Position numbers and translations under genes: made by a program. Below, one piece after another: positions 1,578 to 32,858 of a stretch of DNA of 59,494 nt. Below the pieces are notes generated by a model, which worked only from the letters and a program-made list of their open reading frames with translations, did not search any database and was not told the DNA's origin. This stretch comes from a virus, in the IMG/VR virus record IMGVR_UViG_3300017708_000345, positions 1 to 59,494 of that record. One strand, given 5' to 3'. Every line of letters starts with the position of its first letter. Position 1 is the first letter of the stretch.

Positions 1578-1586
1578 GTAAATAGT
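1578..1586 (-). promoter_or_regulatory. Candidate late promoter motif (ACTATTTAC) before tail sheath gene
   Basis: On the minus strand the site reads ATACTATTTACTCTTGTAG, in the 79-nt gap between the gp15-like gene and the sheath start. It is a member of a set of eight similar sites (consensus ACTA(T/C)TTA(T/C)) described in the findings. It ends 48 nt before the ATG, the longest spacing of the set. Promoter function is inferred from recurrence and placement. Confidence 0.45.
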
Positions 1587-1608
1587 ATTCTATAAGGGCA
1601 AAAACCTT

Positions 1609-2541
1609 TTACTCTCTATAAAATCCTTTACCTTCTTCGTCTTCACTCAAGAAAGTATTAATGTCCCCCAGAATAACTCTTTCTCTGGGGATCTTAACGT
1701 CTACAACGTTTTCGACAACTGTGAGCTTTGGCTTTTCATCATTTGAGCCTTCACCCATTAAATAACCTAAGATTCTTAATTGTATTTCTGTTTCATATGT
1801 TCTTTCTTCTTCGCCCAACTCAGCAACATTATTAGATTGAGCGAAGTCATCTTCGACAAATCCTTCAAAACGATGACCTTCGTGAGAAATAAAGAAATTA
1901 TTAATTTGCCCTGTCTTCGTGACAAAAGGTTGAAAAACATCGTTCATCTGCTGTAAGTATTCGGTTCGAATCTTAACAGAATACATTGACTTAACATAAA
2001 CTGGAATCGGCTGGTAAATGGTCTCGTACACAACCCTGCTTGGGTCGGTAGCCTTGCTTGGAAAGTTTACCTGTCCATTACCAACCCCTTGGTTTGGCCC
2101 ATACTTTCTTGCTGACCAAGCATTCTTAAAATTAGAAGTTTTACCTTGGTTTATTCTTCTTGCGGCTGGAATATTGACTCTTCTAGCTCTGTGGTAAGAC
2201 TTACCAGAGTCTGGTATATGGGCCTGAAAGGTGCCTTTAAATGTTGGGTCTTTGGTGACTGATGTTCTTTCCACTGTCATGAGAGGCAATCTCAGAGCCC
2301 CATTAGAGTCTCTAAGGTCTTTATCGTTCTTAATTTGGAATGCTCTCTCGGCTGAAACCCAGAGAACAGGGACTTTAGTTCTTCCTTTGTTTGTGGTGAC
2401 GTGAAGATCTAACTCCTCGTCAAGGAAAGTGAAAAGCGCACGGTCAATGGTTTCAAGAGTCGAAGGCATAAATTGAATTTCTTGCAGCTTGCCTTCAACC
2501 CCTTTAATTTCTGTATAACCATAATCTTTTTTACCGGGCAT
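1609..2541 (-). CDS. 15: Tail completion / proximal sheath stabilisation protein (gp15-like)
   Basis: This gene encodes 310 residues. It sits between the gp14-like neck gene and the tail sheath gene, the place expected for the protein that caps the tail and joins it to the neck (T4 gp15). Conserved-looking features are a central beta-rich stretch (YETIYQPIPVYVKSMYSVKI) and an IQLRILGYLMGEG segment near residue 265, resembling the Y/I-x-x-x-G-Y-L-x-G seen in gp15 relatives. I chose the ATG at 2539-2541, preceded by GAGGGA and overlapping the upstream stop by 11 nt. A longer reading from a TTG at 2586 would lie inside the gp14-like gene. The family call rests partly on synteny. Confidence 0.65.
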   Translation of the reverse strand: MPGKKDYGYTEIKGVEGKLQEIQFMPSTLETIDRALFTFLDEELDLHVTTNKGRTKVPVLWVSAERAFQIKNDKDLRDSNGALRLPLMTVERTSVTKDPTFKGTFQAHIPDSGKSYHRARRVNIPAARRINQGKTSNFKNAWSARKYGPNQGVGNGQVNFPSKATDPSRVVYETIYQPIPVYVKSMYSVKIRTEYLQQMNDVFQPFVTKTGQINNFFISHEGHRFEGFVEDDFAQSNNVAELGEEERTYETEIQLRILGYLMGEGSNDEKPKLTVVENVVDVKIPRERVILGDINTFLSEDEEGKGFYRE

Positions 2542-3025
2542 CGAATAGTCCCTCGCGTGCCTTAATGCACTTAGCAGATATTTCAAGTCTGTGATCTATC
2601 TGGCCAAAGAGTTGTCTTGGCTCTGATAGGGTCACGATTTCATAGTGAAGATCACCATAAAGAACAAAGTCGCCTTCTCGCACAAAAAGATCTTGGTCTT
2701 CTGTTAATCTGCGTTTATGAAAGTGTACTGTAATACTTGATTCTTTGTCTAGACCAATATTGGTGCTATACTTTGTATTGATTCCATCAAATTCAACAAG
2801 AGCGTGAACGCGGATAGGAGGAAGAAAGTTCTTTCTTATAGCCTCCCCATAAATGTCATGGTAGTTTGTTCTTTCAATGTCAAGAGGATAATATGCAATA
2901 GTCTGCCCAATGACTCGCTCAATAAGCTCATCATTAACTTGCTTTACAAGATCTCTTTCCTTCTTTCCTGTAAACAGGGGAGGAGGTGGAGCATCTGGTT
3001 GTGACCATTTATTCTTCGTTGACAT
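2531..3025 (-). CDS. 14: Neck protein (gp14-like)
   Basis: The product has 164 residues. It resembles T4-type neck protein 14, which with gp13 closes the filled head and joins it to the tail. After a Pro-rich N-terminus (QPDAPPPPLF) comes IAYYPLDIERTNYHDIYGEA, then an EFDG... GLDKESSITVHFHKRRL beta segment and a VREGDFVLYGDLHYEIV segment. These parallel the 'D-x-x-Y-G-E' and 'F-x-R-x-x-x-x' blocks of gp14 relatives. It is shorter than T4 gp14 (about 256 residues). Placement directly after gp13-like and before gp15-like genes matches the 13-14-15 order of T4. SD AGGGG precedes the ATG. Confidence 0.65.
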   Translation of the reverse strand: MSTKNKWSQPDAPPPPLFTGKKERDLVKQVNDELIERVIGQTIAYYPLDIERTNYHDIYGEAIRKNFLPPIRVHALVEFDGINTKYSTNIGLDKESSITVHFHKRRLTEDQDLFVREGDFVLYGDLHYEIVTLSEPRQLFGQIDHRLEISAKCIKAREGLFDAR

Positions 3026-3029
3026 TCAG

Positions 3030-4346
3030 TTACCCCTGATAAATTAGCATTGGAATCTCACTCTGGACCTTATCAATTGCCTCGACCATTTCAGCGTCTT
3101 GCTGAGCAAGGGCCTTATAAGTCATTTCATCGAGGATTGTCTTGAGTTCATCCTTAAGGGCATCCTGCTCCTTCTCTGCCTGAGATAAAAGATCTGATGC
3201 ATTTAGACTTACATTGTCTCCGGGGATTGGAATGGAATTACCAAACTTACCACGGATTTGTCCTAGCATCTCTTTACATAGGGCCAGAGCATATCTTCTA
3301 ATCCAGTGCTTACCAATTGAGTTGATATTCTTATAAGGAATGTTTTCAAATGGCAACGTGTTCATATTATTGATTCCGTCAACACCTGTTTCCTTATTCG
3401 CGTCTTCTGACCAAGGATCTGTATCAATTGTAAAGTTAATCCAGACATTAGCCGTAAATCTTCCATCTGGAATTGGGAAGATTCTTAATCTATTATTATG
3501 AATTTCATAAGAGAAGTGACTAAGCCTTGTGTAAATATGATCTTCATATGCCATGGCCTGCATCTTGTTCTGCCAAGCTGGGATAATCTCAAAGGTCGAG
3601 TCGTCAGAATATTGCCCATAATAGTTCAAGTTGCCAACAACGTTGAGACCTCCGTAATATCCATAGAACCTCCACATAGCTGCTGGGCTCTTATAAAACA
3701 CTTTTTCAATTCTTATCTTTTTGTTGCCCACAAGTCCAGCGTAATCTACTGGTCCTCCAGCACCCTGATCTTCGTTAAGATTAGCTGCACTGGAAATTAT
3801 AGTTTGAATGTCATAATCCTGAACAGAAGCAGTGGTTGCGAAAGAAGCAGAATACATAGTTCTGTTTCCTCCCACGTTTGCCTCTCCAGCAAATGCATCT
3901 CCGATCCTTCTGGCATATCTAAGCTCATATCTAGGATAAGCAAGGTTTGCAGATGAACCTGAGGCTCCACCACCGGTCATCTGACCATCATGGTCAAACG
4001 TGCCCGTAGCAAAGCCTAGAAGGCTGTTTAGAACGTTCTTAGCCTGATGCTTGTTGATATGGTAGGAATACTCTAGGACAGCCTCCTCGTATGCAGCATA
4101 GACGTTACCGGGGGTGATCTCAATATCAAGAACATCTCCACCAAGCTTTTTGTAGGTATAAGTAACTTGATCTGCTGCGCCCGATATGAAGTTCTCATCA
4201 TACAAGGCTGATGTTGAGTCTGCGTAAAGAGCAAAAGGATAATGTATAGTATTGCCAGCACCATTACCTGTTGTAGCGGTACTACCAGTAGAAGTCAATA
4301 TAACTTTGCTAGTAACACTAGCAGGTGTAAGTGTAGGCTTAGCCAT
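3030..4346 (-). CDS. 13: Neck protein (gp13-like)
   Basis: The product has 438 residues, longer than T4 gp13 (about 309). The N-terminus is Thr/Ser/Ala-rich and low in charge. The middle begins LDIEITPGNVYAAYEEAVLE, typical of gp13 relatives. The C-terminal third has IRRYALALCKEMLGQIRGKF, then GDNVSLNASDLLSQAEKE and a helical tail, the most recognisable part of the family (KE-x-LG-x-x-RGKF, then LN-x-x-x-L-x-x-A). The protein forms part of the neck that seals the portal after packaging. It begins 4 nt after the previous stop region, upstream of gp14-like. Confidence 0.75.
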   Translation of the reverse strand: MAKPTLTPASVTSKVILTSTGSTATTGNGAGNTIHYPFALYADSTSALYDENFISGAADQVTYTYKKLGGDVLDIEITPGNVYAAYEEAVLEYSYHINKHQAKNVLNSLLGFATGTFDHDGQMTGGGASGSSANLAYPRYELRYARRIGDAFAGEANVGGNRTMYSASFATTASVQDYDIQTIISSAANLNEDQGAGGPVDYAGLVGNKKIRIEKVFYKSPAAMWRFYGYYGGLNVVGNLNYYGQYSDDSTFEIIPAWQNKMQAMAYEDHIYTRLSHFSYEIHNNRLRIFPIPDGRFTANVWINFTIDTDPWSEDANKETGVDGINNMNTLPFENIPYKNINSIGKHWIRRYALALCKEMLGQIRGKFGNSIPIPGDNVSLNASDLLSQAEKEQDALKDELKTILDEMTYKALAQQDAEMVEAIDKVQSEIPMLIYQG

Positions 4347-4352
4347 TAGTTA

Positions 4353-4523
4353 TTATTCCTTTGTGGTCTTAGTGGTCTTTTTAACTCTCTTAGCTTTTGG
4401 CTTTGGCTTTGGCTTTACAGCCTTCTCGACTACAGGAGCCTTTTCCTCAACAACTGGAGCCTCTGCTTGCTTGCGGGCTGCTGCTGCCTTTAGTCTAAGT
4501 GCCTTTTTCTTTCTGATATTCAT
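4353..4523 (-). CDS. Small Lys/Ala/Pro-rich basic protein, 56 aa
   Basis: This short gene begins MNIRKKKALRLKAAAARK and ends with a repetitive KPKPKPKAKRVKKTTKTTKE tail. It has a strong SD (AAGGAGG, 6 nt before ATG) and its own upstream ACTACTTAT motif. The motif lies just downstream of the terminator that follows the capsid gene. The composition recalls histone H1-like tails and DNA- or RNA-binding peptides. A role in condensing packaged DNA or binding the capsid interior is possible but not shown. It ends 7 nt before the gp13-like start, so it is probably cotranscribed with the neck genes. Confidence 0.7.
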   Translation of the reverse strand: MNIRKKKALRLKAAAARKQAEAPVVEEKAPVVEKAVKPKPKPKAKRVKKTTKTTKE

Positions 4524-4543
4524 TGAATCAGCCTCCTTCTTAT

Positions 4544-4552
4544 ATAAGTAGT
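4544..4552 (-). promoter_or_regulatory. Candidate late promoter motif (ACTACTTAT) after the capsid terminator
   Basis: The minus strand reads AAACTACTTATATAAG, 20 nt before the ATG of the 56-aa basic gene. It is only about 8 nt downstream of the U-rich end of the capsid terminator. A fresh transcription start is expected there if the neck and tail genes are to be expressed, which makes this the best-supported member of the motif set. Confidence 0.55.
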
Positions 4553-6422: not shown

Positions 6423-7445
6423 TTATTCTGCTTTAGCAATACCTGCCAATCTTTGGAACCGATTCTTCAAGACGCTTTCGCGGCTTGCTCTTTCAGTTCT
6501 TCGTCTTGGCATAGTTAGTGAAGGTTTTCTGATAGCTTCGCTCAGTGATTGTGGCTTTGAAGCACCAGCTTCGCCCACTGCGCTTTGAAGGGTCTCAAAG
6601 ATGACCTTCGCCTCTTCAACAGAATCAGCCTTACGAATAGATTCGACAACTTTTGACTTTTGTCGCTCATTCAGGGAGGCGCTATTCAGTGCCTGATTCA
6701 TATAGAGAAGTTTTGCATTTTCCAAGAGGGTTTCTTCAACCTTCTCTTTCAATGCGGAAACAGTTTCACCAAGCTTTTCATTTTGCTTAGTGAGTGATTC
6801 GTTTGTGATGGTAAGACGGTCGTGGGCATCCTGAAGCGCTTTAATTTGCTCTTGGGCCTCAGTTCCGGCACGTCTTGCCAATTCCATTTCTTCAGCGTGT
6901 TGCATCTCGCCTTGTGGAGTTGCAAGCCAGCCAGTCTTAACTGGCATCATGTCAACAATAAGTTCTTCGACCAACTCTTCGATCATGGACTCATCAAAGT
7001 CAACACTCTCTTCGATTTGTGTCTCTTCCTCGGTCACAATTTCAATTTCTTCGTCAATCTCAATTTCTACTTCTTCCTGAAGAGCTTCAGGAGCACCCAT
7101 TGCCATAGCCAACTCTTCTTGTTCCATTGGCTCTTCGTCTTCTGCGTCCATATCGTCAAGAGCTTGCTTTAGAACATCAAGGTTCAAAGAAACCATCTCT
7201 TCGTCTTCAGGACAAGGACAAAGCTTTTCGCCACCTGCGGGTGCTGGTGGGATCTCTGCGACCATCATGGGCTCTTCTCCCATCTCTAGCTCGTCAGTAA
7301 ACATTTCTTCTTGCTCTAGAAGAGTCTCTACTGCGACACGGACTTCGCTTCCATACTTCTCTAGGATAGCAGTCTCTGCATTCTTTAGTGCAGCGTCTCG
7401 TAGGGCCTGAGCATCAATAATAGCTTGTTCTAAAATAGTTGACAT
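6423..7445 (-). CDS. 22: Prohead core scaffold protein (gp22-like)
   Basis: The product has 340 residues. The N-terminal half is extremely acidic, with Glu/Asp/Met-rich runs around residues 40-165. A long coiled coil follows (about 190-260). The next block, SLNERQKSKVVESIRKADSV, is the typical C-terminal helix of gp22-type scaffolds, and a short basic tail (RRRTERASRE) may contact the capsid. The scaffold directs prohead assembly and is destroyed by the protease. I start at the ATG at 7443-7445, which has a GAGG SD. A longer in-frame reading lacks an ATG and would run over the promoter motif. Immediate upstream placement to capsid supports the call. Confidence 0.85.
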   Translation of the reverse strand: MSTILEQAIIDAQALRDAALKNAETAILEKYGSEVRVAVETLLEQEEMFTDELEMGEEPMMVAEIPPAPAGGEKLCPCPEDEEMVSLNLDVLKQALDDMDAEDEEPMEQEELAMAMGAPEALQEEVEIEIDEEIEIVTEEETQIEESVDFDESMIEELVEELIVDMMPVKTGWLATPQGEMQHAEEMELARRAGTEAQEQIKALQDAHDRLTITNESLTKQNEKLGETVSALKEKVEETLLENAKLLYMNQALNSASLNERQKSKVVESIRKADSVEEAKVIFETLQSAVGEAGASKPQSLSEAIRKPSLTMPRRRTERASRESVLKNRFQRLAGIAKAE

Positions 7446-7481: not shown

Positions 7482-7490
7482 ATAAGTAGT
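7482..7490 (-). promoter_or_regulatory. Candidate late promoter motif (ACTACTTAT) before scaffold/capsid genes
   Basis: The minus strand reads AATACTACTTATTTGTG, 36 nt before the scaffold ATG in the 97-nt gap after the bS21 homologue. It shares the ACTACTTAT core with the site at 4544-4552. It would serve the scaffold and capsid genes, with the terminator at 4561-4597 closing the unit. Confidence 0.45.
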
Positions 7491-7542: not shown

Positions 7543-7848
7543 TTATTTGTTCTTCTGAGCAGCTTTTCTAATAGTTTCCGCCCTTTTCATCTTTTCTCTG
7601 CGTCTTTTGACGGAGGGCTTTTCGAAATATTGTCGATTTTTGTACTCTTCAACAATTCTAATTTTCTTGCACTTCTTAAGAAATCTTTTGATTGCTCTTT
7701 CTGGATGTTCACCTTCTCTTACAAAGACTGTAACGTGTGAAGGTCTCTTTCCTTTTGCAACATACTTTGGACGATCATTTCTCTTTCTTCTTCTAGGTCT
7801 TGAATCGTTCCACTGTCTATGTCGCTTATTATCTCTGTTGTAACTCAT
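7543..7848 (-). CDS. rpsU: Ribosomal protein bS21 homologue
   Basis: The product has 101 residues. Residues about 38-97 align by eye with bacterial bS21. VTVFVREGEHPERAIKRFLK matches the 'V-x-V-R-E-x-E-x-x-x-x-A-L-R-R-F-K' start, KNRQYFEKPSVKRRREKMKR matches the 'R-R-R-E-x-Y-E-K-P-x-x-x-R-K-R' block, and a basic helix follows. Residues 1-36 are an extra Arg/Asn/Lys-rich extension not found in host bS21. bS21 sits in the 30S subunit near the mRNA exit and helps initiation. Phage copies are known from uncultured viruses and pelagiphages. The ATG at 7846-7848 has an AGAGGA SD formed partly by the preceding gene's end, suggesting coupled translation with that virion gene. Confidence 0.85.
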   Translation of the reverse strand: MSYNRDNKRHRQWNDSRPRRRKRNDRPKYVAKGKRPSHVTVFVREGEHPERAIKRFLKKCKKIRIVEEYKNRQYFEKPSVKRRREKMKRAETIRKAAQKNK

Positions 7849-7859: not shown

Positions 7860-8261
7860 TTAGCCGACACCGGCTGAACCAGTCCAATTGGTAAACGCCC
7901 TTACTGGTATAGTTGTCAAACCTGCCACGATTGAAGCAGTCTGCTCTGTGGCACTATCAGATAAAATATAAACTGATTTAACTCTGTAGTCTCCAGAAAG
8001 TGATTCTGAACCAGACAAAATAGCGTAGTTGTTCTGGACAGTTCCTGAGACACCGATTGAAGAGAAGCCTACGCGAATGTCACCGGTTGAAGTTGACTCA
8101 TTTCTAATAATCACAAATTTACTGATGTTTGGAAAGCTAACTTCCAAAGGCTCGGAGCCAAGAGCAGGCACTGTAAGTGAAGCAGTAAGGTAAGGCTTAG
8201 CACTTACTAGGTAAGATCCCACATTGTGAAATCCTGCTGTGTATTTAAAATCGTTTGACAT
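7860..8261 (-). CDS. Small predicted virion protein, possible capsid decoration, 133 aa
   Basis: I do not recognise a named family. The sequence is beta-rich, low in charge and Ser/Gly/Val-rich (FHNVGSYLVSAKPYLTASL; SKFVIIRNESTSTGDIRVGF), without signal peptide or membrane segment. Its location among head genes, between the protease region and the scaffold/capsid pair, suggests a head-surface or head-fibre protein. It has a GAGG-containing leader and a candidate late promoter 17 nt before the ATG. Its stop is 11 nt before the bS21 start. Functional call is inference from context only. Confidence 0.6.
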   Translation of the reverse strand: MSNDFKYTAGFHNVGSYLVSAKPYLTASLTVPALGSEPLEVSFPNISKFVIIRNESTSTGDIRVGFSSIGVSGTVQNNYAILSGSESLSGDYRVKSVYILSDSATEQTASIVAGLTTIPVRAFTNWTGSAGVG

Positions 8262-8278: not shown

Positions 8279-8287
8279 ATAAATAGT
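8279..8287 (-). promoter_or_regulatory. Candidate late promoter motif (ACTATTTAT)
   Basis: The minus strand reads AACTATTTATTATAGAAGAGG in a 33-nt gap, with the motif ending 17 nt before the ATG of the 133-aa gene. The downstream TTATAG resembles that at 26788-26796. If it is a promoter, it drives the 133-aa virion gene and the bS21 homologue together. Confidence 0.5.
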
Positions 8288-9029: not shown

Positions 9030-9436
9030 TAGATAAGGGACTTCCAGTTCTTGCCGCCGAGAGCCATAATCCCTGAAATATCAACGCCGGGATCATCTGG
9101 GTCTTGCCCTGCCATTGGGCTTGCAGGGCCTGAAGACCTTGCCTCAGGTGCGGCTGGGGTTGTACCTTCGAAAAGATTCACTCCGTTGAAAGCGTCTTTA
9201 CCAATAGCATCAAGGAGTTGCTTTCTTTGCCTATTAAGGTTTTCGTTTCTGACCTCCACACTCTTGTCTTCTTGTGGAATAACTTGTTGTCTGGTCTCTG
9301 CAATTACTTGACCTCCACCAAGACCCTGAGCAACCTCAGATACGATACCCGTAAGGAGACCATCCTCGAAAATGGTTTCGTGAATACACTCTTTTACAAT
9401 AGGCTTAATTAGCTTTTTTAATTCTGATCTTTTCAT
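9029..9436 (-). CDS. Small head-region protein with MKRSELKKLIKPIVKE N-terminus, 135 aa
   Basis: This is an unrecognised protein. The first 30 residues form a basic/amphipathic helix (MKRSELKKLIKPIVKECIHE). The middle is Gln/Glu-rich and the C-terminus is Pro/Gly/Ala-rich (APEARSSGPASPMAGQDPDD). It starts in a TAATG overlap with the protease gene stop. A similar N-terminus (MKITKARLKQIIKEEL) starts the 217-aa protein at 21302-21955. The gene lies directly after the prohead protease, in the neighbourhood where T4 keeps core proteins. It could be an internal head protein cleaved by the protease, which is inference. Confidence 0.55.
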   Translation of the reverse strand: MKRSELKKLIKPIVKECIHETIFEDGLLTGIVSEVAQGLGGGQVIAETRQQVIPQEDKSVEVRNENLNRQRKQLLDAIGKDAFNGVNLFEGTTPAAPEARSSGPASPMAGQDPDDPGVDISGIMALGGKNWKSLI

Positions 9437-10050
9437 TAGTCTCTCAAAATATTGTTGAGCATACGATTAATCTTATCTGCTCTTGTAAAAATGTTTGGTT
9501 CTTTGTGCTCATGAATACCAGCCTTGACATGCATGAAAGCACCGGGGGTTGATGGCTCTGAAACAAAATCAAAACAAATAAGTTGAAAATCTTCCTCAAC
9601 CATCATCCTTCCTGCTGATTCTCTAACAGAGCCAAGGCCACGAGATGAGATACCTAGTGTAACACCAGAATTGGCCAATTGTTTTAGAATCTGGCCGGAT
9701 GGTGTATTCAAGATTTCGACCTTGCCCATAAGAGCAGTGCCGTCCCACCACATATCAATAACAAGGTGAGAAGCATTCTTTAAGTTAATTACAGAGTCGT
9801 CAGGGTGATCTAACTCACCTAATGCTCTGCGCTCTCTTACGAGCTTCCGGTAATTGTCTACTTCTCTTTGAAGAATATTCTTAGAATAAACTCTACCATT
9901 ACCATTAGGTGTGTCGTACTTCTGCATACAGCCTGTCATGTAAAACTTCTTGCCTTCGGCCATTAGTTTCTTTTCTTGCTCAGTTAGCAAGTCTTGACAG
10001 ACACCACCGTCACATAGTGCATAGTATTCTCGTAAAAGTTGTTTACTCAT
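9436..10050 (-). CDS. 21: Prohead core protease (gp21-like, peptidase U9)
   Basis: The product has 204 residues. GELDHPDDSVINL places the catalytic His at residue 82, and LGISSRGLGS places the nucleophile Ser at 135 or 136. These are the two diagnostic motifs of herpes/T4-type prohead proteases. The region QLICFDFVSEPSTPGAF near residues 156-172 completes the fold, with D161 a candidate third triad member. T4 gp21 cleaves scaffold, capsid and core proteins after Glu, then degrades itself. The start ATG is preceded by GGAG. A terminator-like hairpin ends only 13 nt before it. Length matches T4 gp21 (about 212). Confidence 0.92.
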   Translation of the reverse strand: MSKQLLREYYALCDGGVCQDLLTEQEKKLMAEGKKFYMTGCMQKYDTPNGNGRVYSKNILQREVDNYRKLVRERRALGELDHPDDSVINLKNASHLVIDMWWDGTALMGKVEILNTPSGQILKQLANSGVTLGISSRGLGSVRESAGRMMVEEDFQLICFDFVSEPSTPGAFMHVKAGIHEHKEPNIFTRADKINRMLNNILRD

Positions 10051-10062: not shown

Positions 10063-10086
10063 AAAAAAGGCGGGCGCTACCCGCCC
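10063..10086 (-). terminator. Terminator-like hairpin immediately upstream of protease RBS
   Basis: On the minus strand GGCGGG (10085-10080) pairs with CCCGCC (10074-10069) around a 5-nt loop, followed by six T (10068-10063). The last T is 12 nt from the protease ATG, with the SD GGAG between. The structure is typical of rho-independent termination, but no promoter motif lies between it and the protease gene. It may attenuate or tune protease expression. Confidence 0.75.
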
Positions 10087-10095
10087 GAGCTAAGA

Positions 10096-10129: not shown

Positions 10130-10450
10130 CTACGTCGCATTGTTTACTCCCTTTATCTTCAAGCCATCATCATCGACAAGCATTGAAAGCATGTAAGATG
10201 TTCCTGAACCAACACACCCACAAATAAGAAAGTTCGCAAGTGTATATTCAAAAGTAAATAGTTCTGTCCAACGGTTTATGACAAACAAAAACCATCCGGC
10301 GTGAAAACCGAAACAAAGAGGGCAATGGAATAATTTTCCAAATCCATTTAGCCACTCTTTACTTGGACGAATTGAATTAAAAATACTGGCATTTACTACG
10401 AGAAAAGTTAGGCCGTAGCAAGCCAGCATAAACCATAATAATTGCGTCAC
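10130..10450 (-). CDS. Small membrane protein with CPLC motif (DUF1360-like)
   Basis: The product has 106 residues. It has about three hydrophobic segments (residues 3-21, 47-60 and 71-91). FHCPLCFGFHAGWF at 42-54 recalls DUF1360-type membrane proteins, where a C-P-x-C-x-G-x-W/H motif starts a membrane helix. Function is unknown. It starts with GTG (10448-10450) overlapping the preceding stop as GTGA, with a GGGG SD. Placement between core proteins and the protease is unexpected for a membrane protein. It may act at the inner membrane where T4-type proheads assemble, but that is speculation. Confidence 0.6.
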   Translation of the reverse strand: MTQLLWFMLACYGLTFLVVNASIFNSIRPSKEWLNGFGKLFHCPLCFGFHAGWFLFVINRWTELFTFEYTLANFLICGCVGSGTSYMLSMLVDDDGLKIKGVNNAT

Positions 10451-11246: not shown

Positions 11247-11795
11247 CTAGTAAGTGTATGACATCCAGTAAGGACCGTAGTTATAGCCGGGACGTAGTGC
11301 GCCCTTCTCGGCTTCTTGCGGAACCTCACCTAGTTCTGTTGAGTCTTCTTCATCTGGATCAACATATCGCTCCATCTCCATCTCTTCATACTCATCCATG
11401 AATTCAAAGTACGGACGCTCAGAGTCCATCCATCTGGAGATGTTTACGATGGCCATGTTTTCTGCGTCGAAGTCAGTTGAGTTCTGAATCTTAGCTTCCA
11501 TAGAACCATAAACAGAGCCTGCTTGAATTGATTCAGGTACAACAATGCCTCTTTTGGTCAAGTAAGTAAACAATCTATCCTGAGCACCATATACCAGTTC
11601 TGACATTAAATCCTTGGCAATAGCCAAAATCTTGTTTTTGCCTTTGAGGATTATAATATCAATGTCACTGTGATCAGAAATATAAATGTCTCCGTTTAGA
11701 GACTTTCGAACAACCAACTGAACGTTTATAGAATTATCTTGTTCCTCAGGAGCCAATTCGGGTTTTGGCTCACCGATTCTGACTTTGACAGCCAT
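11247..11795 (-). CDS. Conserved-looking prohead-region protein, 182 aa
   Basis: I do not recognise a family. The N-terminal two-thirds look like a mixed alpha/beta domain (INVQLVVRKSLNGDIYISDH; IDIIILKGKNKILAIAKDLM). The C-terminus is acidic (EYEEMEMERYVDPDEEDSTE) and ends Tyr-rich (YNYGPYWMSYTY). It shares a TAATG junction with the upstream helical gene. In T4 the interval between portal and protease holds the small core proteins 67 and 68. This gene occupies the same interval but shows no clear similarity to them. Confidence 0.6.
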   Translation of the reverse strand: MAVKVRIGEPKPELAPEEQDNSINVQLVVRKSLNGDIYISDHSDIDIIILKGKNKILAIAKDLMSELVYGAQDRLFTYLTKRGIVVPESIQAGSVYGSMEAKIQNSTDFDAENMAIVNISRWMDSERPYFEFMDEYEEMEMERYVDPDEEDSTELGEVPQEAEKGALRPGYNYGPYWMSYTY

Positions 11796-16182: not shown

Positions 16183-16697
16183 CAATCAGCCTTGAGGCCA
16201 CCTTGTTCTAAGAAGTCACGGAAATTAGCATCGAGAGTCTTACGGTCATCGCTACCAGCGTTAACCATCTCTGGTGCATCGGAAGCACCGCCAATATCAT
16301 ACATGCAGTTAGCCTGAACCCAAGAGCGAACGCGAGAAGTATTTTGCACAATTGCCTTCATCTCTCCGTCTTTGGTAAGTGTCAAGCTTTCGCCAGTAAC
16401 CTTTCTGTACTCTTTCTTGAGGAAAGAAGCAATATCTTCAATCATCTGCTCTAGGTCGGACTCAAAACCGTTTGCATAGACTTCCTTGAGTTGGACCTCA
16501 GCGTGATAGTGGATACCAAGCTTTGGACCGTGGAAAGAAACCTTAAAACCGTCCATGACACGAGAGTCAAGGATTGGGTGTCCTTCTTCGCGCTTTAATC
16601 CAATCTTAACGGGCTCGCCGTTTTCGTCTAGAGCACCATCATAGGTATTTGCCATTACCTGTGAAATACCTCTTACAATTTCCATAGTTGTGGCCAT
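16182..16697 (-). CDS. Unknown protein in the small-terminase position, 171 aa
   Basis: The protein starts MATTMEIVRGISQVMANTYD and contains a helical middle (LEQMIEDIASFLKKEYRKVT) flanked by beta segments (GFKVSFHGPKLGIHYHAEVQ). No helix-turn-helix typical of terminase small subunits is evident. In T4 the gene before gp17 is the small terminase gp16, so this or the next gene upstream is the positional candidate. Position alone is weak evidence. It is coupled to terminase through a TGATG junction. Confidence 0.6.
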   Translation of the reverse strand: MATTMEIVRGISQVMANTYDGALDENGEPVKIGLKREEGHPILDSRVMDGFKVSFHGPKLGIHYHAEVQLKEVYANGFESDLEQMIEDIASFLKKEYRKVTGESLTLTKDGEMKAIVQNTSRVRSWVQANCMYDIGGASDAPEMVNAGSDDRKTLDANFRDFLEQGGLKAD

Positions 16698-21976: not shown

Positions 21977-22906
21977 CTACAGCGCCATTAACCTCTCCAA
22001 TAAATAGTTGTCTTTGCCTATAATGGATGCATTTTCTTTTCTTTGAAGAAAAACCTCTTTTGTCATTTCTCCAACATCTTCATAATCTGAAGTATCAATT
22101 TTATACACTGGAATATTGTAAGAAATCAAGAGGTTTGCTATCTTTCTTTCCTTGTCAGCAGCATCGGAGTCAAGAGCTAAATAAACCTTTTGTTTTGACT
22201 TTACAATAGCCTCGAACAACTTGCTTGTTGGTCGAAGTGTCGAGCCAAGAAGCGGAATGCCGTTTCCTGCTTTAATTGCATCAAACACGCCTTCAACAAT
22301 TACAATGTCCTGACCCCAGTCCACATAAAGTTCATTGAAAACAATATTCCGACTCACGGGAGGATTTTTGTACCGTGGCCACTCTTTGCCACATGAACGG
22401 GCAACATAATAGTTGGCCCATCCATCCCTGCTGAAAGAAGGAATAATCACACGACCTGCCCAATCACCTTCGTTGCAAAACCCAATCTTCCACTTCAGAA
22501 TATCCTCTTTACCAATCCCTCGTTTAGAAAGGTATCTCAGAGCGTCTTGAGAGCCCTCAGGAGGCGTTCGGGCCGCAAGGCTATAGAACCCTTCGGGAAG
22601 ACTCACGCGCTGCTCTAGGGGCATCTCAGGCTCCGAAAACAGGAAATCAAAGTCTGTTATCTCAACCTGATCTTCCCACTTGGACCATTCGTCCCTAGTT
22701 TGGCGATCACCATACTTTCGAACAACATATCCAATATCTCTGCCAGACTTATCACAAATCCAGCATTTGAACACGCCTTTCTCAATATTAACAGAGAACT
22801 TTCTTTTATGATGCTTGCAAAAAGGACAATGGAAAAGCACCTCTCCACCTGAAGAGTACGGCCTTCCCAGAACTTCTTTTAAGACTTTAAGTTTTTCTGC
22901 TCGCAT
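21977..22906 (-). CDS. 61: DnaG-type DNA primase (gp61-like)
   Basis: The product has 309 residues. An N-terminal zinc ribbon uses C27, C30, C48 and C51 (CPFC ... CWIC), in place of the Cys3His set of bacterial DnaG. A TOPRIM catalytic core follows, with IVIVEGVFDAIKAG near 202-215 (metal-binding Glu) and LALDSDAADKERK near 243-255 (DxD). It makes the RNA primers for lagging-strand synthesis with a gp41-type helicase, which is outside the window. Length fits T4 gp61 (342). The ATG lies inside the last 28 nt of the resolvase gene, so the two are translated in a coupled fashion. Confidence 0.92.
   Translation of the reverse strand: MRAEKLKVLKEVLGRPYSSGGEVLFHCPFCKHHKRKFSVNIEKGVFKCWICDKSGRDIGYVVRKYGDRQTRDEWSKWEDQVEITDFDFLFSEPEMPLEQRVSLPEGFYSLAARTPPEGSQDALRYLSKRGIGKEDILKWKIGFCNEGDWAGRVIIPSFSRDGWANYYVARSCGKEWPRYKNPPVSRNIVFNELYVDWGQDIVIVEGVFDAIKAGNGIPLLGSTLRPTSKLFEAIVKSKQKVYLALDSDAADKERKIANLLISYNIPVYKIDTSDYEDVGEMTKEVFLQRKENASIIGKDNYLLERLMAL
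22000..22008 (-). promoter_or_regulatory. Candidate late promoter motif inside the primase 3' end (ACTATTTAT)
   Basis: The minus strand reads CAACTATTTATTGGAGAGG, within the last ten codons of the primase gene and 44 nt before the start of the 217-aa gene. It encodes the residues N-Y-L-L-E-R, so chance origin through coding is possible. It is listed because the next gene has a virion-like leader. Confidence 0.3.
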
Positions 22907-25837: not shown

Positions 25838-26761
25838 TTATGCCTTCTTCACGAACTTAACTGGAATGTCAATTCTATATCCTGTGTTGACGCCAGTTAG
25901 TCTAATGTTTGAACTAATAACCTTGAAGCTGTTTGAACCGGTCTTGCCGGTAAAGTCTTCAGTTGTTCCAATTGTATCAAAAAGATAATCGCTAGTGTTT
26001 AGTTCCAGAGAAGCTTGAACCTTGAATACAATTCTTGTACCTCTTGGGCCAGCAATAGCTTGTTGAGCACTGTTGCTAGAATCGGTAATATCGTTAACAT
26101 ACTCAGAATCAGTTCCTCGTGAGAGGTAGTATGTTGCAATAGAGTCATCATCGACAAAAGAAACGGATGCTCTGTTTGAGTCGTCTCGTGAAACAACACT
26201 TCCTAGTCTGTTATCCATCTCCACCATATACTGAGTCTCGACGAGAAGCGGGTCAAGAGTGCGACCGGGGGAAATCTGAGTAGTATCTAAGCCCTGATCC
26301 ACTCGAATGCGGTTTCCGCCTCGACTTGGAGTCTCGCCCATCAAGACACCATCAATAGAAACACCGGCTGACGTGACTTCCAACTCAGTCTCGGAGGCAT
26401 CATCTACGGCAATAAGGAATGTATCATCTGTAAAACGCTTGGTAGAAGCGTCAAAAACTTCGTTTAACTTAAGGGTTGGCAAGAAAAGTAGATTGTTTCT
26501 TGGAATAGAAATAAGTTTAGACTTCATGCTCGCAGCGTTATCTGTGAACGCTTCGAGAACGGGAGTCTGTAGAATGCTTAGATCGTAATAAGCAGATCCA
26601 CTTGCATTGTTCTTATCATAAAGTTCATAGTTAATCTCATCGTCTCCAAGAGCGAACTTCACAATCTTGAAAGAACCGTCACCTCGGGCGAGTCTCATTC
26701 GGCCCGTGTCTGTAAGAACCGCGTCGAGAATAATGTCGCCCGAATTATCTAAAAATGCCAT
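25838..26761 (-). CDS. Virion structural protein with 'LDxxLTxxGR' N-terminal domain, 307 aa
   Basis: The N-terminus (MAFLDNSGDIILDAVLTDTG, then RMRLARGDGSFKIVKFALGD and DEINYELYD) has the same pattern as the 340-aa protein at 32866-33888. That pattern is I-L-D-x-x-L-T-x-x-G-R-x-x-L-x-x-G, then an aromatic strand, then D-E-x-x-Y-(D/E). The rest is beta-rich with a Val/Thr/Asp-rich character and a C-terminal RIDIPVKFVKKA strand. The function is unknown; a tail-assembly adaptor is possible. Start ATG has AGGAGA and an ACTATTTAT motif 26 nt upstream. Confidence 0.7.
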   Translation of the reverse strand: MAFLDNSGDIILDAVLTDTGRMRLARGDGSFKIVKFALGDDEINYELYDKNNASGSAYYDLSILQTPVLEAFTDNAASMKSKLISIPRNNLLFLPTLKLNEVFDASTKRFTDDTFLIAVDDASETELEVTSAGVSIDGVLMGETPSRGGNRIRVDQGLDTTQISPGRTLDPLLVETQYMVEMDNRLGSVVSRDDSNRASVSFVDDDSIATYYLSRGTDSEYVNDITDSSNSAQQAIAGPRGTRIVFKVQASLELNTSDYLFDTIGTTEDFTGKTGSNSFKVISSNIRLTGVNTGYRIDIPVKFVKKA

Positions 26762-26787: not shown

Positions 26788-26796
26788 ATAAATAGT
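26788..26796 (-). promoter_or_regulatory. Candidate late promoter motif (ACTATTTAT) in structural block
   Basis: The minus strand reads ATACTATTTATTATAGTATC within the 54-nt gap before the 307-aa gene, 26 nt from the ATG. The flanks make a perfect dyad (ATACTA/TAGTAT), the most symmetrical copy of the motif. The gap is otherwise gene-free. Confidence 0.5.
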
Positions 26797-26815: not shown

Positions 26816-29098
26816 CTATTCAATTTCGCTTCTAACTCTATTTGTGTTGAAATCTACATTTATATCTACCTTTTTACCAGTAGATCTAGATGTGAGTCTA
26901 ATTTTAAATTTCTTACCTTCTTTTACTCCATATCCTGATGTCGCTGCGAAAAGCGGTTCATCTTCAAGACCTAAAGCAATATTGGTTTTTCCCGCTGCTG
27001 AGTTAGAAGGGTCCAAGTTCGAAGCGTCAGTATTTAAAAACGCTTGAGATATTCTTGGCACAATTTGAATTAGCTTGCGGGCTGACTTTGTTGATGTTTT
27101 AGGGTCTATTGGAGTAAAGTCGTACTTTCTAATAATTGGGTAGCCTGCGCCACCATCATTATATAGTTCAATTTCATAAACTTCACTTGGATTCGATAAC
27201 AACCCGTGAACATCTACTGATCTAAACATATAATAATACTTTTTGTTCGTTACCTGTTTTATAACGATATTAGCAGAACCTGCATCTTTTTCACTTCCAA
27301 GGCCGTCGCCAACTGTAGACACTGATGTTAGCAAGTTTCTCTCAAAGTCTTGATAGCTAACTGGCCTCTCTGCCATTCTATAAATATTGTAAGCTCTATT
27401 ATAATCGTCGGTTTGGAAGGTAATGAGGCCGTCATTCCTTCTTTGATTTATAGCTATTTGTTGAGCGTCTTCTGCTTCCTGTAAGTTTAATGATACAGGC
27501 TCTAAATCTTCAGTACCAAGGTTTGTATTCATATGGAATAATATAAGATCAGTCTTGCCTCTGAAAGGTATAAAGTTTAGCTCGGGACTTAAAGGTGGAT
27601 CTGATAGGATCCTACCTGAGACTTGGAAATAAGGAAGCTCAACCAGCTTGACATATGGTTTAGTTTCCACTTCTATCTCAACAACGTTTTGACGAAGGTT
27701 TGCTTCTGTGTATGCATACCTATTGGCTAGAACTGCTTGAATAGCTGTAACTGAATAAGTATATGTTTGGTTATACTTGACCTGAGTGTCAATGAAGGAT
27801 ATTTTGTCTCTGTTTAGTTCACTTTCAAGATCTTGCGAGTTCATAAAATAAAAAGTTTGGATGGGAGTGTCGATGCCTTCTCCAAGATATTTCACAACTT
27901 TGTACATCAAGATTTCCGAATAACACACCTCTCCATTGATCATATTCTCAAAAGTCAAGACTCTCCTATTTCTAACTGAGGCTGGTGGGCCTGCTCCCAG
28001 AAAGTTGTCAATGGAGTTTTCCAATATTGAAACGCCATTCTGGAATTTTATAGGATTAGCCTCCTGAGATAGAAGAGCTTCATCACTATCGGGTCCAAAG
28101 AAAGAGTAATCTTCTGGTAAAGGAATTCCTCCAACCCATCCACCTAAATCGTTAGAAATCCAAAATTCAAGGTCAAGAGTGGTGCTATTCACAATTGCGT
28201 TGTCAACTCTTCTTGTTCCGGTCGCATCATAGTAAGTATAAGAATAGTCAAACCCTTGTCCTTGCGATGCTATTGGTGCGCCATATACTGTAGAATCATA
28301 AATCCCAAAATAGTCCCTTATCAGGCAAGCACTTAAATCTGAATTCATCAATGCAGACGAAACCTTGTTACCTCCACGGAACGGCATGTTTATCTGGCAG
28401 TACATTGGAAACAAAAATTTGTTTGCCTCATACTCTCTAACATAATCATTGTTTTTACCAGTAATAATCTGATTGGTTAGCTCGGTTCTGGGCATCAACA
28501 AGGCACGCTCAATGTTGTCTGTCAAAATCTCCGAGGTTGGGGCAGTTAATTTGTTTTCAACAATAGTGCCCTCGAAGTCAACTACAAGAGTATCGTCCAA
28601 TAACTCATACATACTGGGTATTAAGTTATGGTCTGTAACGTCCGCTAGAATTCTTTCATACTCAGTGTCCAAATAGCTGTACTCAAAATCTACTCCCAAT
28701 AAATCGTCTGTTGGGTCGATACCTGTTGACAACGACTCTTCATAAGTCAAGTTTGTAGAATTGGTGGCAACAAAATAATCAAAGCTTTTGCCAATAGAAT
28801 TTTCTCGAACAAACTGTAGAAATTCTTCAGCATTCAAGTCTGCATCAGGTTGTGGCTCTACAGTAATGGTTTGTCGAACAACCTCAGTTAGAGCTAAGCC
28901 TAGCTGAAGTGGGTTCTGGAAAACAGATGTTTGACTGACTGTTCTGGTTGGGGATCCGTAATCTGTTATCACATATTTAACAGTTCGGTTTTGAGTAAAC
29001 TCTATGCCTTCGTCCGTCAAACCCCACTCACCTTGATCTGCTCGCAATGGGTCTCTATTGATGTTACCTAATTGAGTAATTGTAGTCTTCTTGGTCAT
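26816..29098 (-). CDS. Virion structural protein with fibronectin-like segments, 760 aa
   Basis: No family is recognised for the full chain. The N-terminal region is acidic and helical/beta mixed. Two segments resemble fibronectin-type strands: TQVKYNQTYTYSVTAIQAVL near residue 440-460, and TNKKYYYMFRSVDVHGLLSN, then PSEVYEIELYND near 625-655. The C-terminus has a KKFKIRLTSRSTGKKVDINV beta/basic segment. It starts in a TAATG overlap with the stop of the 1244-aa gene and belongs to the same tail-structural unit. Surface-exposed tail or baseplate protein is a reasonable inference. Confidence 0.65.
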   Translation of the reverse strand: MTKKTTITQLGNINRDPLRADQGEWGLTDEGIEFTQNRTVKYVITDYGSPTRTVSQTSVFQNPLQLGLALTEVVRQTITVEPQPDADLNAEEFLQFVRENSIGKSFDYFVATNSTNLTYEESLSTGIDPTDDLLGVDFEYSYLDTEYERILADVTDHNLIPSMYELLDDTLVVDFEGTIVENKLTAPTSEILTDNIERALLMPRTELTNQIITGKNNDYVREYEANKFLFPMYCQINMPFRGGNKVSSALMNSDLSACLIRDYFGIYDSTVYGAPIASQGQGFDYSYTYYDATGTRRVDNAIVNSTTLDLEFWISNDLGGWVGGIPLPEDYSFFGPDSDEALLSQEANPIKFQNGVSILENSIDNFLGAGPPASVRNRRVLTFENMINGEVCYSEILMYKVVKYLGEGIDTPIQTFYFMNSQDLESELNRDKISFIDTQVKYNQTYTYSVTAIQAVLANRYAYTEANLRQNVVEIEVETKPYVKLVELPYFQVSGRILSDPPLSPELNFIPFRGKTDLILFHMNTNLGTEDLEPVSLNLQEAEDAQQIAINQRRNDGLITFQTDDYNRAYNIYRMAERPVSYQDFERNLLTSVSTVGDGLGSEKDAGSANIVIKQVTNKKYYYMFRSVDVHGLLSNPSEVYEIELYNDGGAGYPIIRKYDFTPIDPKTSTKSARKLIQIVPRISQAFLNTDASNLDPSNSAAGKTNIALGLEDEPLFAATSGYGVKEGKKFKIRLTSRSTGKKVDINVDFNTNRVRSEIE

Positions 29099-32000
29099 TA
29101 GTAGCCTCCACCAGAGGTATTATTTCTAGTTGTCACTGGTGAACTCATAGGCGTAGAGCTGCCGTTAGGAGAGTCACTGCGAGCTGCTGTTGATGTCCGT
29201 GTTGTAGGGCTACTTTGATTTTGTCTAAAGATTCTATTCTGAACGTTTGCGGTATTAGCATTAACTGTTTCAGGGATTTTCTCTCTTGAGCTAAATGTAG
29301 TTCCTACTCTAGTTACCGATCTTGGTTGTTGTACAACTGTTGTACTGGAAAACTCTACCGGGAGTTGGTCTTGATCCACCAAGGATGTAACTGATTCTTG
29401 GAGTAGCCGTCTACCAGTCAGATTTAAGTTCACACTTTGAACCAAAGTCTCGGAAGCCGCCACCTCTCTTTGCTCAGGTTCCACAAAATCACTAGCAGTT
29501 TGGAACACTGCCACAGACCGCTCTTCTGGCTCTATTCTGTCGGATTGTTTTGGAGCAAGCAAAAACACACTATCAAATTCCGGTAGTCTCATCTTTTGGC
29601 TTTTCTTAAACCCAAGAACATTATTGCGATAAGGCACCATTCTGCACATTACAGTAAGATTTTCATTCTGAATTCTTCTGAATATATCCGCTGTCAATTT
29701 TCTGTATATTGGTTTTGAGATTTGAGCCTTGCCCATTTTATTTGTTTCAAACCCAACCATAACTTCAATAGTATTGATGTGGTTATATAAAAAGTAGAAT
29801 AAACCTGTATACTCAGGAGAGTCAATAATGTCTAGCCCCGTATTTTGTTTCTCTTGTGTCCAGTCTTTTCTGGTTTGGCCGTCAGATGAAAGAATCAAAG
29901 ATTTGATTTGGTTGGGCAAATTGCGGAAGAACCTACTTCGCTTATCTTGCCCCTCTTGACGGCTTTCAAAATACTCATCCACAACATTATCTTCGTTTGT
30001 TAGAATCAAATCTTCTATTGCTTTAATTTTCTTTTTCCCCTTCCTAGAGAAAACAGACTGATTAGAATCTATCAAAGAATTAATAACCGAATTGGCGACT
30101 CCTGTCAAGTCTTTTTCTTCTTCAATGCCAACTATTTTTAAATCTTCGGTATAAACAATATCTTCCTTGCTAAGTCGATCTGTAGAAAATTTAACACTAC
30201 TACCCAAAACAGAGTCTGCGTTTCTAAATTTGCGCTTATCTACTTCCAGCCCGTCAGAAGAGTCTTTTAGCACCATTTTTGTTTTATAGCTGTTAGCAGA
30301 AGAGATAGTAACATTTAAAGAATCCAAAATTACAAGATTGCTTAAATTTTCTTCATATATCTCACGAGAGACTTTGGTTTTGGAGTCTTTATACCCTGAT
30401 CCCAAAAAGAAGACTGGGCTCAGATCATATTCTGGCTCAGTAGGATCTGTTCTAGACCCTAGTCTGCTAGTAGTAGAACCAATATTAGGCTTAACCCGAA
30501 GGATCTCTGAGAGCATCAAGTTATACTGCTTTCTTGCAAATAATCCAGCATTCCTATTGATAGTTCTTAGTGTGTTCTTATCTCCCATCTCAATCACTGC
30601 TGGCGTTAAGTAGGAATAAAAAGCTGATCCAAGATCAAGTTCCTCTGAAGAAACAGCCCCTGTGTCTGTTGCATTCTCTTGCTCTTCCAATCTGGCGTCA
30701 TAAGGAACAGAGAAATATTTTTGGTTTTCAGAATTTAGGCGGTCTTCTAGCTGTTCTGTAGTGAGTCGTCGTGGACCAACAGAGCGACGAGAGGCGCCAC
30801 CCAAGAAATCGTACCCAACATTGTTTTGTATATTGCTGTCGTGGATAGTCTTGAATGCCTTAACCAGTTTAAATGTGTTGTTCGGCAGCTTACCTTTAAA
30901 TGCTGAAGTTCTTTCTTGATAATCTACACTACCCATTCGAGCATCTAAATTACCCAACTTTAACGTAATTTCAGATTCCAAATTACGAATTAGATTTATT
31001 ATTACTTGGATACTCTGAAGAGTCGCTGTCTCGGGATTACACAAGTTGTTGAGAACTTTCATAGCCCTGCTTAACTTTCTGTACCTTATTGCTGAGGTGT
31101 TGCCTAGAACGTCTAGAAACCTTGATGTGGCATTGAGCCAAGGCGAAGAAGCTACGCTTTGACCTAGTAACTCAGCATTCTGTTGAGTAGTGTTATTAGT
31201 AATCTCTTCTTCAGTTGGCACACGATACTGCTGTTGTTTTAGAGCGATGAACTCTGGGCTTAGTTTTCCTGTTTGTGGAATGAAGTTACCCTCTCTTGAT
31301 GATTCATTTAGGTACTCTTGCATCAACCTCTCTGCGTTTGCCAATTGATCAAGTTGATCTTTAACAAACTGGACAGTACCATCTTCAATCTCTAGCTCTA
31401 CCTTGTATCGGTAAAGTCCATCAGTTTCCCTAGCCATATCGTAATCTGTAACACCAAAAGACCTAATACCATTCCCTGCAACTGGGGTTAGATAAACTTC
31501 TCTTATCGCACCGACTCGAACTTTTTGCGACTTCTCTTCCCCTGTCTGAATACTTCTTTTTGTCACTGACCTTTGTAGGAAGCCAGCGTCTCTCTCAGAA
31601 GAATTGGCAATAAGCTCAGTTCTATTTTCATAATCGACTGGTTTTACTTTGCCTCTTCGCAAGCCTCGAACTACCCTCTCTCTATAAACAGAGAAGTTCT
31701 TGATTATGCATCTTTGTAGAATATCAGCTTTAGCTTTCTTGTCTGCTGTTTTCAGCAAAGCACCGTACTGGGTGTTTTCACGAATAATCTTTTCGTGATC
31801 AACGTGAAAAACAAACTTAATTACATTTTGTGCATCTGATGAATAAATGGGTTCTGTGATGTAGGCTTCGCTCTTAATCACTCTAATATCTTGCGAAGTC
31901 TTGATAGAACCGGCTGGGGTTCTTCTTGGACGCACAGGATGTAGCATCAATTCTGGCTCTGCTAGGTCATCAAGTATTCTATAATCTTCAATCAAGAAGT

Positions 32001-32832
32001 TGCTGACCTTGCTTGCCGTAAGCGTAGAGTGCCGATCTTGAGTGTGAAATGCACCTGCCATAGTCTGGCCTTCGGGACCGATGTGGATTGGGCCTGCCCA
32101 CACCTTGCCATTTGGCAATTTATACACAAAAGCATTATTTACCACACTACTATCGACTAAGATACGCTGTGCGGTTGAGTTACCTTGAATATATCTTCTT
32201 CTATTTGATCTTGAAATTACGTTTTTATCTCTTAAAACTTCATTCAAGTCTTGAAAAACGTGAGCAAATACAGCTATATTCTTAGGATTTGCATTAGGAA
32301 GGTAGAAAGAGGTTGAATAAGTTACGTCATATGTTTCTTGGCCATCTACTGTGACCGCAGTTTCACTCTTTAGGGAAGAATCACGAACCTTTTGAAGATT
32401 GATTATATTTTCTTCAAACTTGCCTTGTAGTCTAGCCCTCTTAAGGTAATCTGGACTAAACTCTCCGTTTATAAGATCTTCTGTGATAGCCTTTCTTTTC
32501 GATAGAACGACTCTAAGATTTAGATATTTAAGAATTTCGTCTCGTTCAAACCAAAATGATTTACCGCTCTGGCTGTAACGATCCTTAAGAACAAGGTCTA
32601 CAGTTACTATTAAGCCGTTAGAACCTCTAGGGATATTCTCAAAGTCCACCGAAGAAGGATTGGGCTGACTTTTGCCGAACTGATTCTTCTCCAATTGATC
32701 TAGCGCAGATGGGTCGTACTCGACACCGCGACGTGAACCAGCCAAAACAGAAGGAGCGAGCGTAACCTTCTTAACATACACGTTTGGTAAAACGGTATCA
32801 AAAATACTAGAAATGTCTACTTCAGTTGCCAT
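29098..32832 (-). CDS. Large virion structural protein, 1244 aa
   Basis: I do not recognise this protein. The N-terminal 120 residues (MATEVDISSIFDTVLPNVYV; FENIPRGSNGLIVTVDLVLK) look like a beta-rich docking domain. The middle contains many charged helical segments and repeated Arg/Lys-rich pairs. Residues about 330-470 include HVDHEKIIRENTQYGALLKT. The last 150 residues are low-complexity Ser/Thr/Arg/Asn with Pro and end NTSGGGY, typical of a flexible tail. There is a TAATG overlap with the next gene and an ACTATTTAT motif 17 nt before the ATG. Length and context indicate a tail/baseplate component. Confidence 0.65.
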   Translation of the reverse strand: MATEVDISSIFDTVLPNVYVKKVTLAPSVLAGSRRGVEYDPSALDQLEKNQFGKSQPNPSSVDFENIPRGSNGLIVTVDLVLKDRYSQSGKSFWFERDEILKYLNLRVVLSKRKAITEDLINGEFSPDYLKRARLQGKFEENIINLQKVRDSSLKSETAVTVDGQETYDVTYSTSFYLPNANPKNIAVFAHVFQDLNEVLRDKNVISRSNRRRYIQGNSTAQRILVDSSVVNNAFVYKLPNGKVWAGPIHIGPEGQTMAGAFHTQDRHSTLTASKVSNFLIEDYRILDDLAEPELMLHPVRPRRTPAGSIKTSQDIRVIKSEAYITEPIYSSDAQNVIKFVFHVDHEKIIRENTQYGALLKTADKKAKADILQRCIIKNFSVYRERVVRGLRRGKVKPVDYENRTELIANSSERDAGFLQRSVTKRSIQTGEEKSQKVRVGAIREVYLTPVAGNGIRSFGVTDYDMARETDGLYRYKVELEIEDGTVQFVKDQLDQLANAERLMQEYLNESSREGNFIPQTGKLSPEFIALKQQQYRVPTEEEITNNTTQQNAELLGQSVASSPWLNATSRFLDVLGNTSAIRYRKLSRAMKVLNNLCNPETATLQSIQVIINLIRNLESEITLKLGNLDARMGSVDYQERTSAFKGKLPNNTFKLVKAFKTIHDSNIQNNVGYDFLGGASRRSVGPRRLTTEQLEDRLNSENQKYFSVPYDARLEEQENATDTGAVSSEELDLGSAFYSYLTPAVIEMGDKNTLRTINRNAGLFARKQYNLMLSEILRVKPNIGSTTSRLGSRTDPTEPEYDLSPVFFLGSGYKDSKTKVSREIYEENLSNLVILDSLNVTISSANSYKTKMVLKDSSDGLEVDKRKFRNADSVLGSSVKFSTDRLSKEDIVYTEDLKIVGIEEEKDLTGVANSVINSLIDSNQSVFSRKGKKKIKAIEDLILTNEDNVVDEYFESRQEGQDKRSRFFRNLPNQIKSLILSSDGQTRKDWTQEKQNTGLDIIDSPEYTGLFYFLYNHINTIEVMVGFETNKMGKAQISKPIYRKLTADIFRRIQNENLTVMCRMVPYRNNVLGFKKSQKMRLPEFDSVFLLAPKQSDRIEPEERSVAVFQTASDFVEPEQREVAASETLVQSVNLNLTGRRLLQESVTSLVDQDQLPVEFSSTTVVQQPRSVTRVGTTFSSREKIPETVNANTANVQNRIFRQNQSSPTTRTSTAARSDSPNGSSTPMSSPVTTRNNTSGGGY

Positions 32833-32849
32833 TCTTTGGGGCCTCTAAG

Positions 32850-32858
32850 ATAAATAGT
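32850..32858 (-). promoter_or_regulatory. Candidate late promoter motif (ACTATTTAT) before 1244-aa gene
   Basis: The minus strand reads GAAACTATTTATCTTAGAGG in a 33-nt gap, 17 nt before the ATG. The spacing is identical to the copy at 8279-8287. The GAGG that follows is the ribosome-binding site, so a transcript starting here would have a leader of roughly 10-15 nt. Confidence 0.5.

Follow-up and report, generated by a model that had tools for sequence, protein, structure and literature searches.

The late promoter of phage T4 is the box TATAAATA, at which the late sigma factor gp55 flips A-12, A-9 and A-8 into pockets of Y97, N13/H95 and T99, respectively (PMC7892883). Variants of the T4 box were described in silico for cyanophages of the S-PM2 type (NATAAATA; PMC2984593) and for the late promoter of Aeromonas phage Aeh1, with a/gC at -13/-12 (PMC2988020). 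The late promoter of phage 7-11, GTAAtg-(16)-aCTA, was mapped experimentally; the sigma factor of this phage, SaPh711_gp47, contains region 4, while its relative phi32_gp36 is without region 4 and goes with a single promoter element (PMC8948821). In a survey of the Far-T4 phages from 2015, T4 core genes controlling transcription were not found, and a promoter, sigma factor or gp55 is not mentioned (PMC4360716). The present analysis concerns a short element, ACTA(T/C)TTA(T/C), which recurs in a 59.5-kb virus contig (IMG/VR record IMGVR_UViG_3300017708_000345; its 59,494 nucleotides (nt) are called the window) and which had been proposed, from the letters alone, as a candidate late promoter of a non-T4 type (the original prediction). 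A text search of the literature yielded no paper describing this box. It is highly probable that the element would serve as the late promoter of a large clade of Far-T4 myoviruses, opened by host RNA polymerase together with a gp55-like sigma and often accompanied by a second block, GGCnTTT.

Both strands of the window were scanned for exact copies of ACTAYTTAY. Twelve matches were obtained, all on the minus strand, i.e., in the transcribed direction, and none on the plus strand; shuffled windows contained 1.95 ± 1.41 copies, and 12 was reached in no shuffle. Gene-free gaps make up 1.3% of the window, yet they hold 7 of the 12 copies (binomial p = 5e-11), and 8 of the 12 are situated 10–70 nt before a start codon (p = 1e-8). 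The coordinates and letters of these eight sites had all been given exactly in the original prediction, as had the location of seven of them in gene-free gaps and of the copy at 22000 across the end of the primase gene; the measured distances from the end of the motif to the start codon (48, 20, 36, 17, 21, 44, 26 and 17 nt, in coordinate order) bear out the range of 17–48 nt. The four copies in coding sequence, 10254–10262, 16870–16878, 43766–43774 and 47032–47040, were absent from the earlier list. A ninth, relaxed site, ACTAATTAC at 46787–46795 upstream of a gp6-like baseplate gene, had also been missed; it was recognised because two large relatives carry the box before their baseplate gp6-like gene.

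Relatives were represented by 80 IMG/VR loci with a related capsid gene (60–81% identity; 952 kb, 488 upstream regions) and 80 loci with a related gp55 gene (1,489 kb, 249 upstream regions); a near-identity DNA search of phage records gave no match. ACTAYTTAY occurred in the capsid loci 223 times in sense and 5 times in antisense orientation, compared to 37 and 9 times around gp55, where 1.5 times as much DNA was covered. The sense copies of the capsid loci were intergenic in 199 cases; 15 were orthologous coding sites in one uncalled small gene (TELFT peptide), which were excluded from the sequence logo, and 9 were in called genes. Equal frequency in coding sequence, which had been named beforehand as an argument against the proposal, was thus not found. 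Intergenic sites kept a distance of at least 10 nt from the next start (median 33 nt). The motif was present in each of the 43 large related records, which were scanned over their full length; one strand has about 447 copies, the opposite one 25, and for the large records compared the motif-rich strand is that of gp55.

A de novo search for 7-mers in the upstream regions, which was blind to the motif, ranked CTATTTA first, with 236 regions versus 11 expected. Tests of one-letter variants showed a requirement for C, T, A, T, T and A, with freedom at the fourth and eighth positions alone (CTAnTTAn); the recurrent element of the original prediction was therefore retained, while its exact wording was replaced by the core CTAnTTA. 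This core was present in sense in 331 of the 488 upstream regions of the capsid loci and in antisense in 11; near gp55 it was found in 50 of 249 (Fisher p = 7e-36). The T4 box TATAAATA is rare in the clade (sense in 6 of the 488 regions). The window stems from an uncultured virus of bacteria, and the box, which is common to a large group of aquatic T4 relatives, would very probably act as a late switch for virion genes.

The places of the box are conserved as well. It was found before 47 of 47 sheath, 54 of 54 scaffold and 67 of 73 head-tail adaptor orthologues, before 13 of 17 orthologues of the gene preceding bS21, before none of 76 capsid genes, and before 0–4% of most other orthologues. 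Transcription of the capsid gene evidently begins at the predicted scaffold promoter. This arrangement recurs in two large relatives (172 and 186 kb), in which the baseplate gp6-like gene and the tail tube gene are preceded by boxes as well; many of the genes served by boxes in the relatives are without known function. A purine peak (G/A, then A) was present in the relatives at a fixed distance of 5–6 nt past the 9-mer (+13/+14 from the A of the motif), which is the spacing expected of a transcription start, and starts are predicted there.

The logo contained a second block, consisting of G-20, G-19, C/A-18, any base, T-16, T-15 and T-14, counted from the first A of the motif; it corresponds to GGCnTTT, 15 nt upstream of TAnTTA and at about -35 relative to the predicted start. 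With a score of >3 bits in register as threshold, the block was present at 60% of CTATTTA sites versus 0 of 64 coding or antisense controls. At CTAATTA and CTAGTTA sites, which were mostly outside the training set for the block, the values were 53% and 35%, respectively, versus 21% and 0% in the controls, the 21% being largely due to a conserved portal-gene site which is itself a possible promoter. Many blocks are formed by the 3' arm and T-run of the terminator which ends the previous operon. An explanation of the block as terminator remains only was rejected, since it persists at terminator-free sites: where no terminator was detectable, GGNNTTT occurred at one offset in 33 of 133 sites, compared to a mean of 0.67 at other offsets. 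The second block is a property of the clade which is optional at the individual site, and the clade promoter would often be bipartite, with GGCnTTT as its new part.

The candidate reader is encoded on the minus strand at 57298–58011, a gp55-like late sigma of 237 amino acids (aa) with sigma region 2 (about 20–123) and a C-terminal helix-turn-helix domain (about 172–234). The late-sigma match in the search of the window was weak; profile comparison by hhalign with T4-type gp55 gave E = 1.7e-8, and 49 of 52 relatives matched the PHROG 234 late-sigma family. In AlphaFold2 models, sigma region 2 is followed by a distinct C-terminal domain, for which a helix-turn-helix was modelled with high confidence (pLDDT 90.6). 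Models were searched by Foldseek, whole and with the C-terminal domain alone; the best matches of the whole model were sigma factors (E = 0.03), and those of the C-terminal domain were DNA-binding helix-turn-helix folds, including a sigmaA domain 4 complex (TMt 0.62), none of them significant. By eye, the C-terminus consists of this domain and RxFKxKWxxGxI, and a hydrophobic-acidic, SLDFLYE-like clamp-binding motif was not recognised in gp55 of the clade. Similar gp55 proteins, annotated as hypothetical, are encoded by Flavobacterium phage immuto and Microcystis phage Mel-JY01 (records L175, L176, L170 and L169), which carry TATTTAT in sense in 14 of 22 and 9 of 13 upstream regions of the virion region, respectively. 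The small gene directly downstream of gp55 (57002–57301) is conserved as well as gp55 (70% and 58% identity in relatives), and its product is possibly a partner of the sigma.

As to the residues which form the pockets in T4 gp55, Y97 is kept in 84 of 84 clade proteins, T99 is replaced by S in 83 of 84, H95 by F in 84 of 84, and N13 by T in 78 of 84. If TA of CTA is placed at -13/-12, both A-12 and A-8 are retained in the box while -9 becomes T, which matches the kept and changed residues; it is suggestive that the box would have changed in step with them. The exchange of H95 to F was considered as a specificity switch and dropped, since F occurs also in the gp55 of a cyanophage with a T4-like box. 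Considering the profile match, the co-occurrence and the pocket residues, a gp55-like sigma as the natural reader, as originally suggested, would appear to be the best explanation.

From the motif, its strand, position and conservation, the second block and the purine peak we infer promoter function, late timing and reading by gp55. Host RNA polymerase carrying the phage gp55-like sigma would open CTAnTTA, usually ACTATTTAT, as a -10-like element, and RNA synthesis would begin about 5–6 nt past the 9-mer. In over half of the clade sites GGCnTTT occupies the place expected of a -35 element, and the 3' arm and T-run of the terminator ending the previous operon often double as this block. That the second block is read by the extra C-terminal helix-turn-helix domain of gp55 is speculative. 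A combined scheme can be offered tentatively, in which gp55 has two domains, region 2 opening CTAnTTA and a region-4-like domain reading GGCnTTT, and the terminator closing one late operon supplies the following promoter with its -35 element. If this is true, the T4 lineage would have two architectures of late promoter, one of them that of T4, with a single box and dependence on the clamp.

Several observations weigh against the interpretation as a late promoter read by gp55. Of the nine sites of the window, 4544 alone has a strong upstream block and 1578 a moderate one, and five score near or below zero. Some boxes serve non-structural genes, e.g., PhoH. The Foldseek matches of the C-terminal domain had E values of 2 or more. 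Immuto and Mel-JY01, with the same extra gp55 domain, show no clear upstream block, so this domain need not read the block. A gp45-like clamp was not found with Pfam DNA_PPF or with a cyanophage gp45 query that finds T4 gp45, although divergent clamps would escape both.

Other explanations account for part of the data. The combination of a -10-like box with GGCnTTT has a layout like that of ordinary two-element sigma promoters, and the link to gp55 is drawn from comparisons only, so a host sigma or another phage factor might read the promoter; this is unlikely, since all large gp55-bearing records examined have the motif, the box keeps both adenines whose gp55 pockets are conserved, it is far denser in virion regions than near gp55, and the pair TTGACA-TATAAT was not found in upstream regions of the capsid loci. 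Being strand-specific and located in leaders, the motif could also act in the RNA, as a translation enhancer or as a regulatory or processing site. Its distance to the start, however, varies from 10 to >70 nt, a separate Shine-Dalgarno sequence is present, and the leaders examined fold no better than shuffles, except for the terminator; moreover, the motif stands directly behind terminators, where upstream RNA mostly would have ended, and is missing before all 76 capsid genes, probably those with the highest translation, all of which makes an RNA element very improbable.

The original prediction had also considered an operator, based on dyad flanks of several copies; a DNA-binding protein, repressor or activator, would then occupy the element. 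The flanks of the window copies 8279 and 26788 are indeed partly self-complementary (CTATTTATTATAG), but across 198 sites of the relatives pairing of the flanks never exceeded the shuffled value at any centre, and TAG at positions 11–13 was present in 8 of 198; dyads as a general feature were thus not supported. Strict orientation, the fixed purine peak and the fixed second block likewise point to a promoter, and an operator must be regarded as highly improbable. Finally, the gaps are AT-rich, and the window alone offers eight or nine sites, so enrichment of an AT-rich word by chance had to be considered; in view of the shuffles, the strand asymmetry (331 versus 11), the conservation at orthologues and a control for base order, its probability is practically negligible. 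A late promoter of non-T4 type, as originally read, is supported by the conservation in relatives and by its absence from the T4 and cyanophage controls described below.

All predicted promoters of the window are on the minus strand. The box ACTATTTAC at 1578–1586, 48 nt before the tail-sheath gene (3–1529), has a partial upstream block (-35 score 4.1) and a predicted start at about 1572–1573. At 4544–4552, ACTACTTAT is located 20 nt before 4353–4523, which is followed by the head-tail adaptor gene (3030–4346); the full upstream block of this site, GGGCTTTT, is in register (score 8.7) and is supplied by the Rho-independent terminator after the capsid gene (4597–4567, 13 pairs), whose 3' arm and T-run overlap it, in agreement with the earlier statement that this copy directly follows a strong terminator. 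The same letters, ACTACTTAT, occur at 7482–7490, 36 nt before a scaffold-like gene (6423–7445) with the capsid gene next. The form ACTATTTAT is found at 8279–8287, together with TATAG, 17 nt before 7860–8261 with the bS21 gene next; at 18120–18128, 21 nt before a small gene (17907–18098) with an Rz-like spanin gene next, where it adjoins the stop of the SbcCD-like gene, a box having the same place in the relative G004; at 22000–22008, within the last primase codons and 44 nt before 21302–21955; at 26788–26796, 26 nt before 25838–26761, whose orthologues in G004 and G036 also have a box; and at 32850–32858, 17 nt before 29098–32832. The additional box at 46787–46795 precedes the gp6-like baseplate wedge gene (44980–46770) by 16 nt, and in the orthologues of G004 and G036 a box is located 20–23 nt upstream.

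Two intragenic sites are possible promoters. ACTACTTAC at 16870–16878, inside 16698–17093 and 172 nt before 16182–16697, has a full upstream block (score 6.7) and an initiator, the best complete set of -35, -10 and initiator elements outside gaps, and may drive the terminase genes. TCTAATTAT at 12723–12731, in the 3' end of the portal gene and 97 nt before 11795–12625, contains CTAATTA; CTAnTTA is present in 13 of 13 orthologues, with a -35-like block. The same letters encode a conserved [ST]NY peptide, and the codon choice suggests selection for a promoter. The copy at 10254–10262 encodes TELFT in a conserved protein of about 100 aa (10130–10450; 20 related loci) and, judged by its position, is not a promoter. 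Upstream of the protease gene (9436–10050) there is a strong terminator (10068–10087), whose end is about 18 nt from the gene start, with no box in between.

The recognised genes of the window are all on the minus strand and include T4-like genes for gp23 capsid, gp21 protease, gp20 portal, gp17 terminase, gp18 sheath and gp6 and gp25 baseplate proteins, besides gp46/47-like SbcCD and a gp61-like primase. The reading frame 18128–21226 encodes one protein of 1032 aa which matches SbcD-like and SbcC-like PHROG families, i.e., gp47 and gp46 in a single chain. A phage-encoded ribosomal protein bS21 (7543–7848; Pfam S21, E = 4e-15) is contained in the virion gene block, and Mel-JY01 has one too. 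Very large uncharacterised proteins of the tail region, 3197 and 2517 aa, are encoded at 33885–43478 and 47221–54774, respectively.

A candidate sigma, its box and an operon map are now described for the large and widespread Far-T4 group, and the box should enable prediction of operons in many uncultured contigs. Owing to the clean co-conservation, the clade lends itself as a natural test case for changes in the DNA specificity of a late sigma. Since immuto is an isolate, the box, though not the -35 block, would be directly testable there.

Rhodothermus phage RM378, whose box is possibly akin to that of the clade, carries TATTTAA in 7 of 14 upstream regions; its annotated sigma, which adjoins the capsid gene (L171:981–1580), by eye looks ECF-like with a C-terminal helix-turn-helix, not gp55-like. 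In immuto and Mel-JY01 the base preceding the box is A or C, compared to the fixed C of the clade. The promoter of phage 7-11 resembles that of the clade in having two parts and ACTA in the -10 box, and is a precedent for the use of a two-part promoter by a late sigma with region 4; however, this phage is a podovirus with an unrelated sigma and another -35 sequence. The variants of the S-PM2 type and of Aeh1 keep AAATA or alter -13/-12, whereas the clade keeps -13/-12 and changes -10/-9. When T4 and cyanophage S-SSM7 were processed in the same way as controls, TATAAATA or ATAAATA was obtained in sense and the clade box was not seen; S-SSM7 showed ATAAATA in sense and no CTATTTAT, and the late promoters of T4 were 17–73 nt before starts. 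An explanation of the box as the T4 box inverted (TATTTATA being its reverse complement) is not needed, since the direct register shares T-13, A-12 and A-8, and usually T-11 and T-7. Differences from T4 are TT instead of AA at -10/-9, an added invariant C at -14, the upstream block at many sites, compared to none in T4 (PMC2988020), the lack of a box before the capsid gene, where T4 has P23 (PMC7892883), and the extra C-terminal domain of gp55, which T4 gp55 does not possess. Shared with T4 are a short -10-like box near late virion genes and a gp55 homologue as its proposed reader, and the clade sites lie, as those of the T4 type, in gaps or behind terminators, a short distance upstream of late virion genes.

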